Positions 1,062 through 5,458 of a stretch of 62,344 nucleotides of DNA are shown here, one piece after another; positions within the stretch are counted from its first letter, which is position 1; every line of letters begins with the position of its first letter. Below the pieces are notes generated by a model. The model saw only the letters and a list, made by a program, of their open reading frames with translations. It did not search any database and was not told where the DNA came from. The position numbers and the translations under genes are program-made. The stretch comes from an uncultured Gammaproteobacteria bacterium. Lineage in GTDB: Bacteria; Pseudomonadota; Gammaproteobacteria; Magnimaribacterales; Magnimaribacteraceae. The stretch lies in the NCBI GenBank assembly GCA_913045055.1, contig CAJWPI010000007.1:1-62344 (forward strand), in the 5' to 3' direction.

Positions 1062-1102
1062 ATTTTTATAATAATTTCAATATTGCTTAGGTTTTTTGAA
1101 GT

Positions 1103-1108
1103 TATAAT
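1103..1108 (+). promoter_or_regulatory. Possible -10 box of the peroxiredoxin gene
   Basis: A perfect TATAAT lies 37 nt upstream of the peroxiredoxin ATG. No good -35 sits at the usual distance; TTGCTT at 1083-1088 leaves only 14 nt. The promoter may therefore need an activator, or the box may be chance in AT-rich DNA. Confidence 0.35.
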
Positions 1109-1145
1109 GAGATTCTTTAAAAACCTCAACTTATTTGGAGATATT

Positions 1146-1628
1146 ATGACAATACAAGAAGGAGACACATTACCCGCAGTAACTTTGACTACAATGACTG
1201 AAGAAGGACCTAAACCTATTGACTTACAAGAGTTGTGTGATGGAAAAAAGGTTGTTTTATTTGCTGTTCCTGGAGCTTTCACCCCAACATGTAGTGCTCA
1301 ACACTTACCAGGCTATGTTCAAAATTCTCAATCATTCAAAGAGAAGGGAGTAGATGTCGTGGCTTGTGTATCAGTAAATGACCCATTTGTTATGGGAGCA
1401 TGGGGAAAAGATAGAAATGTTTCTGACGAGGTCTTAATGTTAGCTGATGGTAATGGAGAACTTACTGCTGCAATAGGTTTAGAGATGGATGGAACAGGTT
1501 TTGGACTAGGCACAAGATCTCAAAGATATGCGATGGTAATAGACTCTGGAGTGGTTGCTACTTTAAAAGTAGAACCAGGTCCTAGTTTAGATGTTAGTTC
1601 TGCTGAATCTATTTTAGAATCCCTCTAG
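1146..1628 (+). CDS. Peroxiredoxin, Prx5 / AhpC-TSA redoxin type
   Basis: This 160-residue cytoplasmic thiol peroxidase would reduce hydrogen peroxide and organic hydroperoxides. The peroxidatic cysteine is Cys49 in VPGAFTPTCS, the signature of the Prx5 subfamily. Cys31 and Cys74 are also present, and either could be a resolving partner. The fold looks complete, through WGKDR and the TRSQRYAMVID strand to the C terminus. The frame is open from 1083, but the ATG at 1146 has GGAG 5 nt upstream and matches the family N terminus (EGDTLPAVTL), so I chose it. The P450 gene starts 8 bp downstream, so the peroxidase may protect against uncoupled P450 chemistry; this is inference. Confidence 0.9.
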   Translation: MTIQEGDTLPAVTLTTMTEEGPKPIDLQELCDGKKVVLFAVPGAFTPTCSAQHLPGYVQNSQSFKEKGVDVVACVSVNDPFVMGAWGKDRNVSDEVLMLADGNGELTAAIGLEMDGTGFGLGTRSQRYAMVIDSGVVATLKVEPGPSLDVSSAESILESL

Positions 1629-1636
1629 AAACTTTT

Positions 1637-2875
1637 ATGACCCAACCTATTTATGACATAGGTCAGATATGTCAGCTAGATAAATGGGAAACCTTTATCA
1701 ATGGCCAACCTTTTGATACTTTTACAAGATTAAGAAAGGAAGCGCCTGTTTATTGGCATGAAGAGGTCTTGGAATTTGAACCTGGATTTTGGGCCTTAAC
1801 AAAGTACGAAGATATCATAATGGTATCGAAAGACCCTGAAACATTTTCTTCTGCTAAAGGAGGCCATCTAATGACTATGGGTGATCCTAAGGTAGTAGAT
1901 CCAGCAGCCGTTGCAGCCATTATAGGAAATATGATTGGAATGGATCCTCCGGAACATCAAGTGTATAGAAAAATGGTAGCTCCTAGATTTTCTCCAAAAT
2001 CAGTTCGTCTTTTAGAAGATGGCATGAGGAAAAAAGTGAAGGAACTATTAGATAAGGTCGAAGACCTTGGTGAGTTCAACTTTGTAACAGAAATAGCTGA
2101 ACAACTTCCTTTGTGGGTTCTTTGCGAAATGATGGGCATTGAAGAATCTGAACGTCCTAAAATAAGAGATCTTGTAAATAATCTTACAGATGCATCTATT
2201 AATCAAGACCCTGAACAATCTATGCAAGTATGGCTCAATTACATGGAACTATTCAAGATGGGTAGGGATATGATTGAAGAAAGAAGAAAAAATCCTACTG
2301 ATGATTTAATGAGTGTAGTTGCAAATACTCAAGTAGAAGGAGATGAGTTGCCACCTGAACTTCTCGATGGTTTTTTCTTACTTATGGTAATAGCTGGTAA
2401 TGAAACTACACGAAATACTATAACCGGTGGTTTATTGGCTTTAACAGAAAATCCTAAAGAAAGAGAAAAACTTATTAAGGATCCTTCACTTATTTCTAAT
2501 GCTACTGATGAAATGCTTCGATGGGTTACCTCAGTTATCTACTTTAGAAGAACTGCTACCAAGGATACAGTTATTAGAGGTCAAGAAATAAAAGAAGGTG
2601 ACAAAGTTGTTATGTGGTATGGGTCTGCAAACAGGGATGAAGACATATTTAATGATGGACACTTGTTTAAAGTAGATAGATTTAATGCTAAGAAACATTT
2701 AGCTTTTGGAGCAGGGGAGCATCTTTGTCTTGGCAATAGATTAGGCCATATGCAAATAAAGGTTTTATTTGAAGAGTTATTAAAACGTTATCCTGAAATT
2801 AGATCAGTTGCTGATCCTATCAGAGTTCCTTCTAACTTTTTAGCTGGAATTTCTGAATTAAAAGTAAAGATTTAA
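1637..2875 (+). CDS. Cytochrome P450, bacterial soluble class
   Basis: This 412-residue heme monooxygenase has no membrane anchor. The I-helix oxygen-activating motif is AGNETT (253-258), with Glu in place of the commoner Asp. The ExxR pair is Glu292/Arg295. The heme loop FGAGEHLCLG runs 357-366, with Cys364 as thiolate ligand. WYGSANRDEDIF before the heme loop is typical of bacterial P450s that act on terpenoids, fatty acids or sterol side chains. The substrate cannot be read from sequence. It needs ferredoxin and a reductase, and neither is encoded here. The next gene begins 2 bp after the stop, so it heads a tight operon with the DUF7064-like protein, the kinase and a small protein. Confidence 0.95.
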   Translation: MTQPIYDIGQICQLDKWETFINGQPFDTFTRLRKEAPVYWHEEVLEFEPGFWALTKYEDIIMVSKDPETFSSAKGGHLMTMGDPKVVDPAAVAAIIGNMIGMDPPEHQVYRKMVAPRFSPKSVRLLEDGMRKKVKELLDKVEDLGEFNFVTEIAEQLPLWVLCEMMGIEESERPKIRDLVNNLTDASINQDPEQSMQVWLNYMELFKMGRDMIEERRKNPTDDLMSVVANTQVEGDELPPELLDGFFLLMVIAGNETTRNTITGGLLALTENPKEREKLIKDPSLISNATDEMLRWVTSVIYFRRTATKDTVIRGQEIKEGDKVVMWYGSANRDEDIFNDGHLFKVDRFNAKKHLAFGAGEHLCLGNRLGHMQIKVLFEELLKRYPEIRSVADPIRVPSNFLAGISELKVKI

Positions 2876-2877
2876 TT

Positions 2878-3978
2878 ATGCTAACTAAAGGAGACGACTA
2901 TCCAATTCATCAGTTACCTCTTCCAGTGTCTGAAGTAGGTTCAGAAAGAAACTTTTACGATCGCTATTTTTTCAATGGTTATAACAAGGAGGGGGATGTA
3001 TTTTTTGCAGCAGCTCTTTGTGTATATCCTAATTTAAATATTATGGATGGCTCTTTTGTTGTTGTAAGAAATAATATGCAACACAATTGCAGGTACTCCA
3101 GAGTAATGGGTTTAGAAAGGCTAGATACAAGAGTAGGGGCTTTAGAAATTGAGGTATTAGAACCTTTAAAAAGATTAAAAGTAGAAGTCTCCGATAAGGA
3201 AGCAAATATCTCCGCTAAACTTACCTTTGAAGGTAGATTTGAGGCTGTGGAAGAACCAAAAATGATCTTAAGTAATGGTCCTAGATTAGTCATGGATTCA
3301 ACTCGCTTGACTCAACAAGGCAGCTGGTCTGGATACATAAATTTATTAGATGAGGAAATAAAAATAGACTCTAAGAATTTTTATGGGACTAGAGATCGAT
3401 CATGGGGAATACGTCCCGTAGGTGCACCAGACAGTCAACCTACAATTCCTTTAGAAATTCCACAGTTTTATTGGTTATGGTGTCCTGCTAATTTTGATTC
3501 TTTCAGTACCCATATGTTCTTTGTTGACGATGACAAGGGGAAGTTATTAACTGGACATTCTGTTAAGCAAGGAGAAGATTATTCTGCAACTTCACTTCTA
3601 GAAAATTTAAAGAAGAATGTGCATTATGTTTCCAATACAAGACGAGTATCTAAGGCTGAATTCTTTTCAGATACTCCAGAGGGTAAGGAAATAAAAGTAT
3701 CAATAGAACCACAATATAACGTTTTTATGTGTGGATTAGGCTATATGCATCCAGAATGGGGCCATGGACATTTTAAAGGCGAAGAAGCAAGCTCCTATGA
3801 TACTTATAAACTTGAAGAAGATTTACATGATCCGCCTTTTCTGCATATTCAAGCCTTTTGTAATATTTCTTGTGACACTGGAGGATCTCAGTTTTCTGGA
3901 GTAGGGGTCTTGGAGCAATTATTCCTTGGTCCACATGAACCGAGTGGTTTTAAAGATCTTCTTGATCGACCTCAGTGA
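2878..3978 (+). CDS. DUF7064-like protein, calycin/CrtC-type fold (function unknown)
   Basis: This 366-residue protein has no signal peptide or membrane segment. It has the look of the DUF7064/DUF7065 proteins: an N-terminal FYDRYFFNGY block, a beta-rich middle, and GTRDRSWGIRPVG followed by FYWLWCPANFD. The block with paired R and W in DRSWG recurs in AttH/CrtC-type calycin proteins, some of which hydrate or bind isoprenoids. I recognise the pattern from memory; the family has no firm function that I know of. It is translationally packed between the P450 and the kinase, so it may bind or transform a hydrophobic P450 substrate or product. Lipocalin-like binding and hydratase activity are both possible. 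Confidence 0.6.
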   Translation: MLTKGDDYPIHQLPLPVSEVGSERNFYDRYFFNGYNKEGDVFFAAALCVYPNLNIMDGSFVVVRNNMQHNCRYSRVMGLERLDTRVGALEIEVLEPLKRLKVEVSDKEANISAKLTFEGRFEAVEEPKMILSNGPRLVMDSTRLTQQGSWSGYINLLDEEIKIDSKNFYGTRDRSWGIRPVGAPDSQPTIPLEIPQFYWLWCPANFDSFSTHMFFVDDDKGKLLTGHSVKQGEDYSATSLLENLKKNVHYVSNTRRVSKAEFFSDTPEGKEIKVSIEPQYNVFMCGLGYMHPEWGHGHFKGEEASSYDTYKLEEDLHDPPFLHIQAFCNISCDTGGSQFSGVGVLEQLFLGPHEPSGFKDLLDRPQ

Positions 3979-3995
3979 ATCAAATTAAGGAAAAT

Positions 3996-5012
3996 ATGCC
4001 GCAAAACTTAGGTGTAGAGTTTGCTGAATATCTTTCCAGAAAACTAAATAAGAAATTTGAATGCCAAGAAATAAGGAGAATTTTTGGTGGAGCTTCAAGA
4101 GAAACTTATCGAGTAAGGCTTATTGAAAAAAATAAAAGAGATTCCGTAAATGTTATTTATCGGAGGTCTCAAAAGAATTCTTTAATTGAAACAAAGCAAG
4201 AAACTGAATATCTAGCTTATTCATTATTCCAGGGTACCGGTGTACCTGTACCAAAACTTATATCGTTTGAAGGCTCTTCACAATCATTAGGAGCTCCTTT
4301 TTTAGTAATGGAAGAATTAGAAGGAGAGGCTGCTAGCCCTTTTGATAGTGACGTGTATAAGCCTTTTGAGGAAGAAATAGGTAAGCAATTTTGGACAATT
4401 TTAGGAAAAATAGCTTCTTTAGAAGTTCCAAAAAATAGATTAACTAAGTCCTTTAAGAATCCTTCTAATGATACCACATGGAAGAATGAATTAGATTATT
4501 GGGTCGGTGTTATAAGAAACGATTCTTTGGGAATAGAGCCTATTTTGGAGGCCGCCATAAGATGGCTATATAGATGTCCTCCAAAGCAGGCTGAAAAGAT
4601 ATGTCTTGTACATGGAGATTATAGGAATGGAAATTTCTTAGTAAAAAAAAATAAAATTACCGGTATTCTAGACTGGGAAATGGCTCATTTAGGAGATCCT
4701 TTAGAAGATCTTGCTTGGGCTCTATCCCCTATATGGTGTTGGGAGCTTTTATCAAGACCCGCATATTTAATTAGTCGAGAAAAAGGGCTGGCTATATGGA
4801 AAAAAGAAAGCGGGCTAAGAATAGACGAAACCTCACTAAATTGGTGGGAATTATTTGCCTGCGTAAAGGGTTTAGCAATTTGGATTTCAGCTGGTAATGA
4901 ATTTATTTCTAGTAGAAATACTGATCCAGTAAATCTATTTTCAGCTTGGATTCCAGGAGACATTCATAAAGAAGTAATATTGGATAAGATGGAGGCACTC
5001 ATCTATCTATGA
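3996..5012 (+). CDS. APH-like phosphotransferase, ACAD10/11-N or LvaA-type (possible hydroxyacyl-CoA kinase)
   Basis: About 338 residues with a protein-kinase-like fold. The N-terminal FGGASRETYRV is the nucleotide loop. The catalytic loop HGDYRNGN begins at His206, with Asp208 as base and Asn213 as metal ligand. DWE at Asp226 is the second metal site, followed by GDPLEDLAW. This full pattern is typical of the ACAD10/11 N-terminal domain and of LvaA, which phosphorylates 4-hydroxyacyl-CoA, rather than of antibiotic-resistance enzymes. The frame runs back to a GTG at 3975 overlapping the previous stop, but the ATG at 3996 has AAGGA 4 nt upstream. The downstream small gene overlaps it by 4 bp. 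The substrate assignment is inference. Confidence 0.8.
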   Translation: MPQNLGVEFAEYLSRKLNKKFECQEIRRIFGGASRETYRVRLIEKNKRDSVNVIYRRSQKNSLIETKQETEYLAYSLFQGTGVPVPKLISFEGSSQSLGAPFLVMEELEGEAASPFDSDVYKPFEEEIGKQFWTILGKIASLEVPKNRLTKSFKNPSNDTTWKNELDYWVGVIRNDSLGIEPILEAAIRWLYRCPPKQAEKICLVHGDYRNGNFLVKKNKITGILDWEMAHLGDPLEDLAWALSPIWCWELLSRPAYLISREKGLAIWKKESGLRIDETSLNWWELFACVKGLAIWISAGNEFISSRNTDPVNLFSAWIPGDIHKEVILDKMEALIYL

Positions 5013-5458
5013 AACCAGACATAAACCAAAGTCTAATGATTCTAGCTCAAGAGCTTATTCAAAGATTTTCTCCTTTATTGCATGAAGAATACGAGCAGTC
5101 TAGACTTAATTCTTTAGCAGCTTTAATTATCTTAGGATCAATTAATTTAGATAAAGAGATAGCGAACCTTTCTGATCATAATAAGCTTATTGAAAAGTGG
5201 CTTTCTAAGTCTCTTGTACAAATACATGACAGTGAGCTTAAAGAAGAATTAGTTAAAGTATTGTCTTCTGGAGAAGATAGTATTACTCATGCAGCTCTTG
5301 ATTCACGTAATCAGCTTCTTAAAAAGAATCTAGTTCGGGTTCAAGCTTATTTTGAAGATATCAAGGAAAAGGATTCTTTAATAGAATCTTGGGAAATCTT
5401 AAGAAAAATACATAACGACAGTAAGATTAATCACTTACTCCCTATGTTAAAGGAATAA
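5009..5458 (+). CDS. Small protein coupled to the APH-like kinase, possibly LvaB / DUF6285-like
   Basis: The predicted 149-residue, mostly alpha-helical protein has no signal peptide, membrane helix, cysteine pair or obvious catalytic motif. Helical heptads run across residues 10-45 and 95-140. The start ATG overlaps the kinase stop (ATGA, 4 bp), showing tight co-translation. In several bacteria, APH-like acyl-CoA kinases are followed by a small DUF6285 protein, and LvaB beside LvaA boosts kinase activity. I place this protein there by position, size and helicity; residue similarity is weak by eye. It otherwise counts as unknown. The 167-bp gap after it separates this operon from parE. Confidence 0.55.
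   Translation: MKPDINQSLMILAQELIQRFSPLLHEEYEQSRLNSLAALIILGSINLDKEIANLSDHNKLIEKWLSKSLVQIHDSELKEELVKVLSSGEDSITHAALDSRNQLLKKNLVRVQAYFEDIKEKDSLIESWEILRKIHNDSKINHLLPMLKE

Follow-up and report, generated by a model that had tools for sequence, protein, structure and literature searches.

What does a bacterium of the surface ocean do with a cytochrome P450, an APH-fold kinase, a small helical protein and one further protein whose genes form a single tightly packed unit? Such a unit lies in a 62,344-nucleotide stretch of an uncultured gammaproteobacterial genome of the family Magnimaribacteraceae (GenBank assembly GCA_913045055.1, contig CAJWPI010000007.1, positions 1 to 62,344; hereafter the window). 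The window is in contig 7 of a genome of 1.49 Mb that is 84% complete, which beyond the window was viewed through targeted stretches, and whose closest relatives, by the lyase-family gene described here, are SAR86-cluster bacteria. SAR86 are among the most abundant bacteria of the surface ocean; widespread potential for steroid side-chain degradation and cyp125-like genes have been reported for them (PMC11582366). A sequence-only reading of the window had proposed that the P450 hydroxylates a lipid or isoprenoid acid, that the kinase and the small protein phosphorylate the resulting hydroxyacyl-coenzyme A (CoA) in the manner of LvaA and LvaB, and that the second protein of the unit, labelled DUF7064-like, binds or hydrates the intermediate. 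Here we propose, with reasonable confidence, that the unit encodes an O2- and ATP-dependent dehydration module, in net effect a desaturation, which likely acts on the side chain of an isoprenoid or sterol.

The main departure from the earlier reading concerns the second protein. The NCBIfam model NF053593 (Rv3169_fam) matches its residues 2-349 at 348.7 bits (E 3.3e-104), well above the curated cut-off of 150 bits, and a Pfam search at E<=1 returned no family, so the DUF7064-like label is not borne out. The relatives for which a structure has been solved are all 25-phosphosteroid lyases (25-PSL; PDB 9fzn, E 2.3e-43, with 9g2i and 9g4c; E about 1e-43). When an AlphaFold2 model of the protein (predicted local distance difference test, pLDDT, 88) was searched with Foldseek, the top five matches, 9g4c among them, were all 25-PSL at template modelling (TM) scores of 0.81-0.82, with 29% identity at TM 0.82. 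Kievitone hydratase and Diels-Alderases trailed at TM about 0.5, and a carotenoid or terpene hydratase was rejected because this likeness is far below that to 25-PSL. By its description, the entry 9g4c shows the lyase together with phosphate and the alkene product, desmost-1,4-diene-3-one. It has the motif RNRSWG where the wild type and the window protein have RDRSWG, and the Asp replaced by Asn in 9g4c aligns with D173 (window numbering), which is kept in 45/45 and 40/40 diverse relatives. This substitution and the invariance suggest that D173 is catalytic. Because of the NF053593 membership, the exclusively 25-PSL solved relatives, the fold match and the invariant Asp, the second protein most likely removes phosphate as a C-O lyase, and a binding or hydrating role is not what its family suggests.

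Family membership, linkage, the conserved putative catalytic Asp and the kinase swapping described below come from sequence, predicted fold or gene order, and from them we infer an order of reactions. Going by linkage, the P450 would insert oxygen at an unactivated carbon, most likely a tertiary or subterminal one in the side chain of an isoprenoid or a sterol-type compound. Family and linkage together suggest that the kinase, with the small protein as its partner, would phosphorylate the new hydroxyl and that the lyase-family protein would then expel the phosphate to leave an alkene. The net effect would be that an unreactive chain is desaturated and opened to further oxidation; a CoA-ester step is not indicated. 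The hydroxylate-phosphorylate-eliminate logic of the sequence-only reading thus survives, with elimination assigned to the very protein it had taken for a binder or hydratase. In Sterolibacterium denitrificans, tertiary 25-hydroxysteroids are phosphorylated with ATP (PMC8449060) and a lyase, still called putative in PMC11061730, removes that phosphate to give the delta-24 alkene.

The best evidence for a phosphorylated intermediate common to kinase and lyase is that the kinase has been swapped while the lyase beside it stayed almost unchanged. Lyases of types I and II from SAR86 form one clade (support 100/100) and their kinases belong to different superclades, hence the partner kinase was exchanged. 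Kinases of the Rv3168/9fsg type stand beside lyase-family genes in other SAR86, PS1, Spongiibacteraceae and Tsukamurella, and ecdysteroid-kinase-like (EcKL-like) kinases do so in Sphingomonadaceae, Myxococcota, a metagenome-assembled genome (MAG) of Ilumatobacteraceae and Rhodococcus. Of 42 non-SAR86 loci, about 22 have a kinase next to the lyase-family gene, by a hand tally in which several of the others end at a contig edge. We put forward tentatively that Rv3169-family lyases form a general ATP-dependent dehydratase system with interchangeable kinases, spread over several bacterial phyla and including Rv3168-Rv3169 of Mycobacterium tuberculosis. In SAR86, some alphaproteobacteria and rhodococci a P450 may drive this system, so that aerobes could use O2 and ATP to desaturate the side chains of sterols or isoprenoids, with a kinase that depends on a small helical protein as its partner.

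The unit is real and not a chance arrangement, given that its gene order is repeated across SAR86 loci. All four open reading frames are on the + strand, separated in order by a 2-bp gap, a 4-bp overlap and a 4-bp overlap, as the initial reading had described. About 23 complete SAR86 loci keep the order peroxiredoxin-P450-lyase-kinase-small protein, and 18/18 loci of the host's own family that were fetched separately keep the order of the four genes; the two sets may overlap in organisms. In one alphaproteobacterium (L152) all four parts are present but rearranged, with the lyase on one strand and P450-kinase-small protein on the other, so the expected linkage of the four genes extends beyond SAR86. 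Lyase-kinase-small protein occurs in other alphaproteobacteria (L044-L046, L053, L057, L059, L150, L151), P450 linkage in two deltaproteobacterial MAGs (L073, L076), and the Rhodococcus plasmids pRB98 and pDK3 have one cluster with a P450, a lyase, a kinase of the window kinase's superclade and a small protein. On pRB98 of Rhodococcus oxybenzonivorans, P450, an OB-fold protein, lyase, kinase and small protein form one run (L159:4124-9647), with a CoA-ligase-type gene on one side and an aldehyde dehydrogenase gene on the other.

The kinase carries the motifs GGASR, HGDYRNGN at 213 and DWEM at 233, and would by its sequence be an ATP-dependent alcohol kinase. In trees that took solved kinases as aligned stretches only and did not include Pseudomonas putida LvaA, it forms one clade with its SAR86 and alphaproteobacterial counterparts (support 99/99 to 100/99), and this type I clade is sister to kinases encoded directly before DUF6285 genes (superclade support 100/98). 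The opposite superclade holds Rv3168, 9fsg, 9o56, 3dxp and ACAD11; 9fsg, deposited as 'aminoglycoside phosphotransferase-like protein', is probably the S. denitrificans 25-hydroxysteroid kinase, judging from neighbouring entries and size. The earlier idea of an LvaA-type kinase therefore holds as far as the superclade of DUF6285-linked kinases, and the likeness to LvaA consists of that membership only. An antibiotic kinase was rejected on weak scores against resistance equivalogs and its grouping with other kinases.

DUF6285, which we take to be the LvaB family, is named by no paper in the literature searched. All ten DUF6285 genes with separate frames that were fetched come after a kinase gene, and two more are naturally fused to an APH-fold kinase (L098:337-1797 and L099:1441-2802), which supports a physical complex of kinase and partner. 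In Sulfitobacter a CoA ligase precedes the kinase-DUF6285 pair and an acyl-CoA dehydrogenase follows it, and the order kinase-DUF6285-acyl-CoA dehydrogenase helps the assignment of DUF6285 to LvaB. Elsewhere in the host genome another kinase-DUF6285 pair immediately follows the gene of an acyl-CoA dehydrogenase (L113:5263-7825; G000:C9:33263-35825). This pair is a locus apart from the window operon and constitutes the lva-like unit of the genome.

The small protein of the window has no convincing match in Pfam or NCBIfam, and its AlphaFold2 model, all-helical at pLDDT 86.7, found nothing in the PDB at E below 0.7. With the DUF6285 model (PF19802, Pfam cut-off 28.1) it gave no match, nor did other members of its group except that of L044, at 10.3 bits. 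Profile alignment with hhalign matched the alphaproteobacterial small proteins with DUF6285 at 84-88% probability over about 98 collinear columns and a score of 38 versus a shuffle maximum of 20 (0/200 column shuffles as high), whereas all members pooled reached 34% and SAR86 members alone 0.1%, no signal. Of the LvaB-like protein first suggested, what stands is a helical protein that is probably a distant DUF6285 relative by way of its alphaproteobacterial members, and what falls is a match to the DUF6285 model itself; common origin is likely, not proven. In the SAR86 and alphaproteobacterial loci examined, the small gene comes immediately after that of the type I kinase, and on the Rhodococcus plasmids small proteins also follow the corresponding kinases, one of them weakly similar (E 0.0015, small search). 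A small partner gene after the kinase is a trait that maps to this kinase superclade, and the small protein may be the partner subunit of the kinase.

The superclade also bears on an LvaAB-like alternative, in which an acid hydroxylated by the P450 becomes a hydroxyacyl-CoA, kinase and small protein phosphorylate this ester, and the lyase takes over phosphate expulsion from the LvaC or ACAD11 dehydrogenase, so that beta-oxidation continues. Besides the DUF6285-linked kinases and their Sulfitobacter setting, Rhodococcus copies near AMP-dependent ligases and acyl-CoA dehydrogenases favour it, as does the action of LvaA and LvaB on 4-hydroxyvaleryl-CoA (PMC6692424). We nevertheless consider it unlikely. 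The unit has no CoA ligase, no acyl-CoA dehydrogenase of the LvaC/ACAD11 type was found in 1083-5458 or directly downstream, the solved lyase binds a free steroid product and not a CoA ester, and the lva-like pair described above already stands elsewhere in the genome beside an acyl-CoA dehydrogenase.

The P450 has the heme motif FGAGEHLCLG at residue 357 and the I-helix motif AGNETT at 253. Its best PDB match is a reconstructed ancestral CYP125 (42.9% identity), followed by CYP126, CYP153, CYP268 and CYP124, and extant CYP125 chains rank below these; the criterion used for the CYP125 family was at least 40% identity to members together with sterol C26 hydroxylation. As a relative of the CYP125/126/124/153/268 group it would be expected to hydroxylate an unactivated C-H bond.

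The host genome encodes HsaC-like, IpdA/IpdB-like, KshA-like and KstD-like proteins. A steroid-ring degradation-type cluster in this streamlined marine genome (L116:5626-10138 and L110; G000:C11) includes HsaC-like, IpdA/IpdB-like, EchA20-like, enoyl-CoA hydratase, thiolase, hydratase/aldolase and KshA-like proteins and acyl-CoA dehydrogenases, with KstD-like genes elsewhere; the IpdA/IpdB names come from sequence reading and gene order, and no model names these proteins. Across SAR86-order genomes (n = 121), a lyase-family gene over the cut-off is present in 12/12 with IpdA versus 55/109 without it, counts that are uncorrected for kinship. KshA agrees with IpdA in 20/20 genomes checked.

Several points weigh against the module as we propose it. 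Among genomes of the host's own family (n = 34), 31 have the lyase gene over the cut-off and only 2 have the steroid-ring marker IpdA, which means that the unit cannot depend on ring degradation. The window lyase lies within the 25-PSL family yet is not on the nearest branch to 25-PSL in the tree, and its substrate may therefore differ. Of the P450 relatives with known activity, the best (CYP125, CYP124 and CYP153) attack terminal carbons; the product would then be a primary alcohol, and the phosphate of such an alcohol is more difficult to expel. In S. denitrificans, for its part, the neighbourhood of the kinase gene contains no candidate for the lyase (PMC8449060). A strict tie to steroid-ring degradation was rejected, given that most own-family genomes with the lyase are without IpdA and KshA is absent in the four own-family genomes checked; a better fit for the substrate is a sterol attacked at its side chain alone, or some other isoprenoid.

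The same distribution could also be read as biosynthetic or tailoring, with the module desaturating an endogenous isoprenoid or membrane lipid and not a food source. It is near-universal in its own SAR86 family whatever the steroid-ring genes and occupies a fixed housekeeping site beside a type II topoisomerase gene. However, the relatives of known function are catabolic (PMC8449060, PMC11061730) and in other phyla several copies have degradation-type genes around them, which leaves this reading quite improbable. Least probable is that the P450 is a mere neighbour and that the other three proteins work on an alcohol from a different source: kinase and lyase do occur without an adjacent P450 in alphaproteobacterial and other SAR86 copies, but the P450 gene is spaced by 2 bp, its linkage is conserved in all own-family loci examined, and there is independent P450 linkage in an alphaproteobacterium, deltaproteobacterial MAGs and Rhodococcus.

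By analogy with described systems, the window unit is best read as a kinase-lyase dehydration system of a known type, in a variant that starts with a P450. With the 25-hydroxysteroid kinase and 25-phosphosteroid lyase of S. denitrificans it shares the lyase family, the fold, the putative catalytic Asp and the phosphorylate-then-eliminate logic (PMC8449060, PMC11061730; PDB 9fzn, 9g2i, 9g4c). In that anaerobic route, however, the hydroxyl comes from water via a Mo enzyme, whereas here it would come from O2 via the P450; 9fsg, probably the kinase of that route, falls in the other superclade, and no small partner is known. The lva operon of P. putida (LvaA/LvaB/LvaC) likewise pairs an APH-fold kinase with a small partner and has phosphorylation followed by phosphate loss (PMC6692424), but there an acyl-CoA dehydrogenase that acts on a CoA ester is credited with the elimination, whereas the window unit has a phosphosteroid-lyase-family protein, no acyl-CoA dehydrogenase and a small protein that fails the DUF6285 hidden Markov model. 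In M. tuberculosis, Rv3168 and Rv3169, after which NF053593 is named, are adjacent kinase and lyase-family genes (PMC5340868; PDB 3ats). That operon differs in a kinase of the 9fsg-type superclade and in having neither a small partner nor a reported P450. Mammalian ACAD10/ACAD11 also use an APH-fold kinase to phosphorylate a hydroxyl that is later eliminated (PMC12440821), but the kinase is fused to an acyl-CoA dehydrogenase, acts on a CoA ester and differs in superclade from that of the window.

Table 1 Genes of the unit and the adjoining peroxiredoxin gene, in window positions.
Feature	Position	Strand	Product	Evidence
P450	1637-2875	+	412 aa	PF00067, E 9.5e-31
Rv3169-family / 25-phosphosteroid-lyase-family protein	2878-3978	+	366 aa	NF053593, 348.7 bits
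APH-fold kinase (type I)	3975-5012	+	345 aa, GTG start	PF01636, E 2.6e-31
Small helical protein	5009-5458	+	149 aa	Position after kinase; AlphaFold2 model; hhalign to DUF6285
Peroxiredoxin (Redoxin, PF08534)	1146-1628	+		E 3.7e-39; 8 bp upstream of P450

The peroxiredoxin gene is part of the conserved block in SAR86 and its role in the unit is uncertain (Table 1). Genes for topoisomerase IV-like ParE/ParC lie downstream. A promoter scan gave nothing informative, with fewer sites than in shuffles. Lyase-family genes also occur away from such units. A second, very divergent Rv3169-family-like protein of the host (G000:C12:32530-32793; 340-aa frame, 22.6 bits) has weak matches in many own-family genomes too. 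In the SAR86 genera with steroid-ring genes, a third type adjoins leuS in a housekeeping block with no kinase neighbour (L153, L154, L155, L157, L158).

Proteobacteria with steroid-ring pathways have been reported to be without CYP125/CYP142 orthologues, and so without a known entry into the sterol side chain (PMC4810484). The window unit is a concrete candidate for that missing side-chain entry. It suggests a function, open to biochemical testing, for a family that spans SAR86 to M. tuberculosis, and it predicts that 'hypothetical' proteins encoded beside phosphotransferases would be phosphate lyases.

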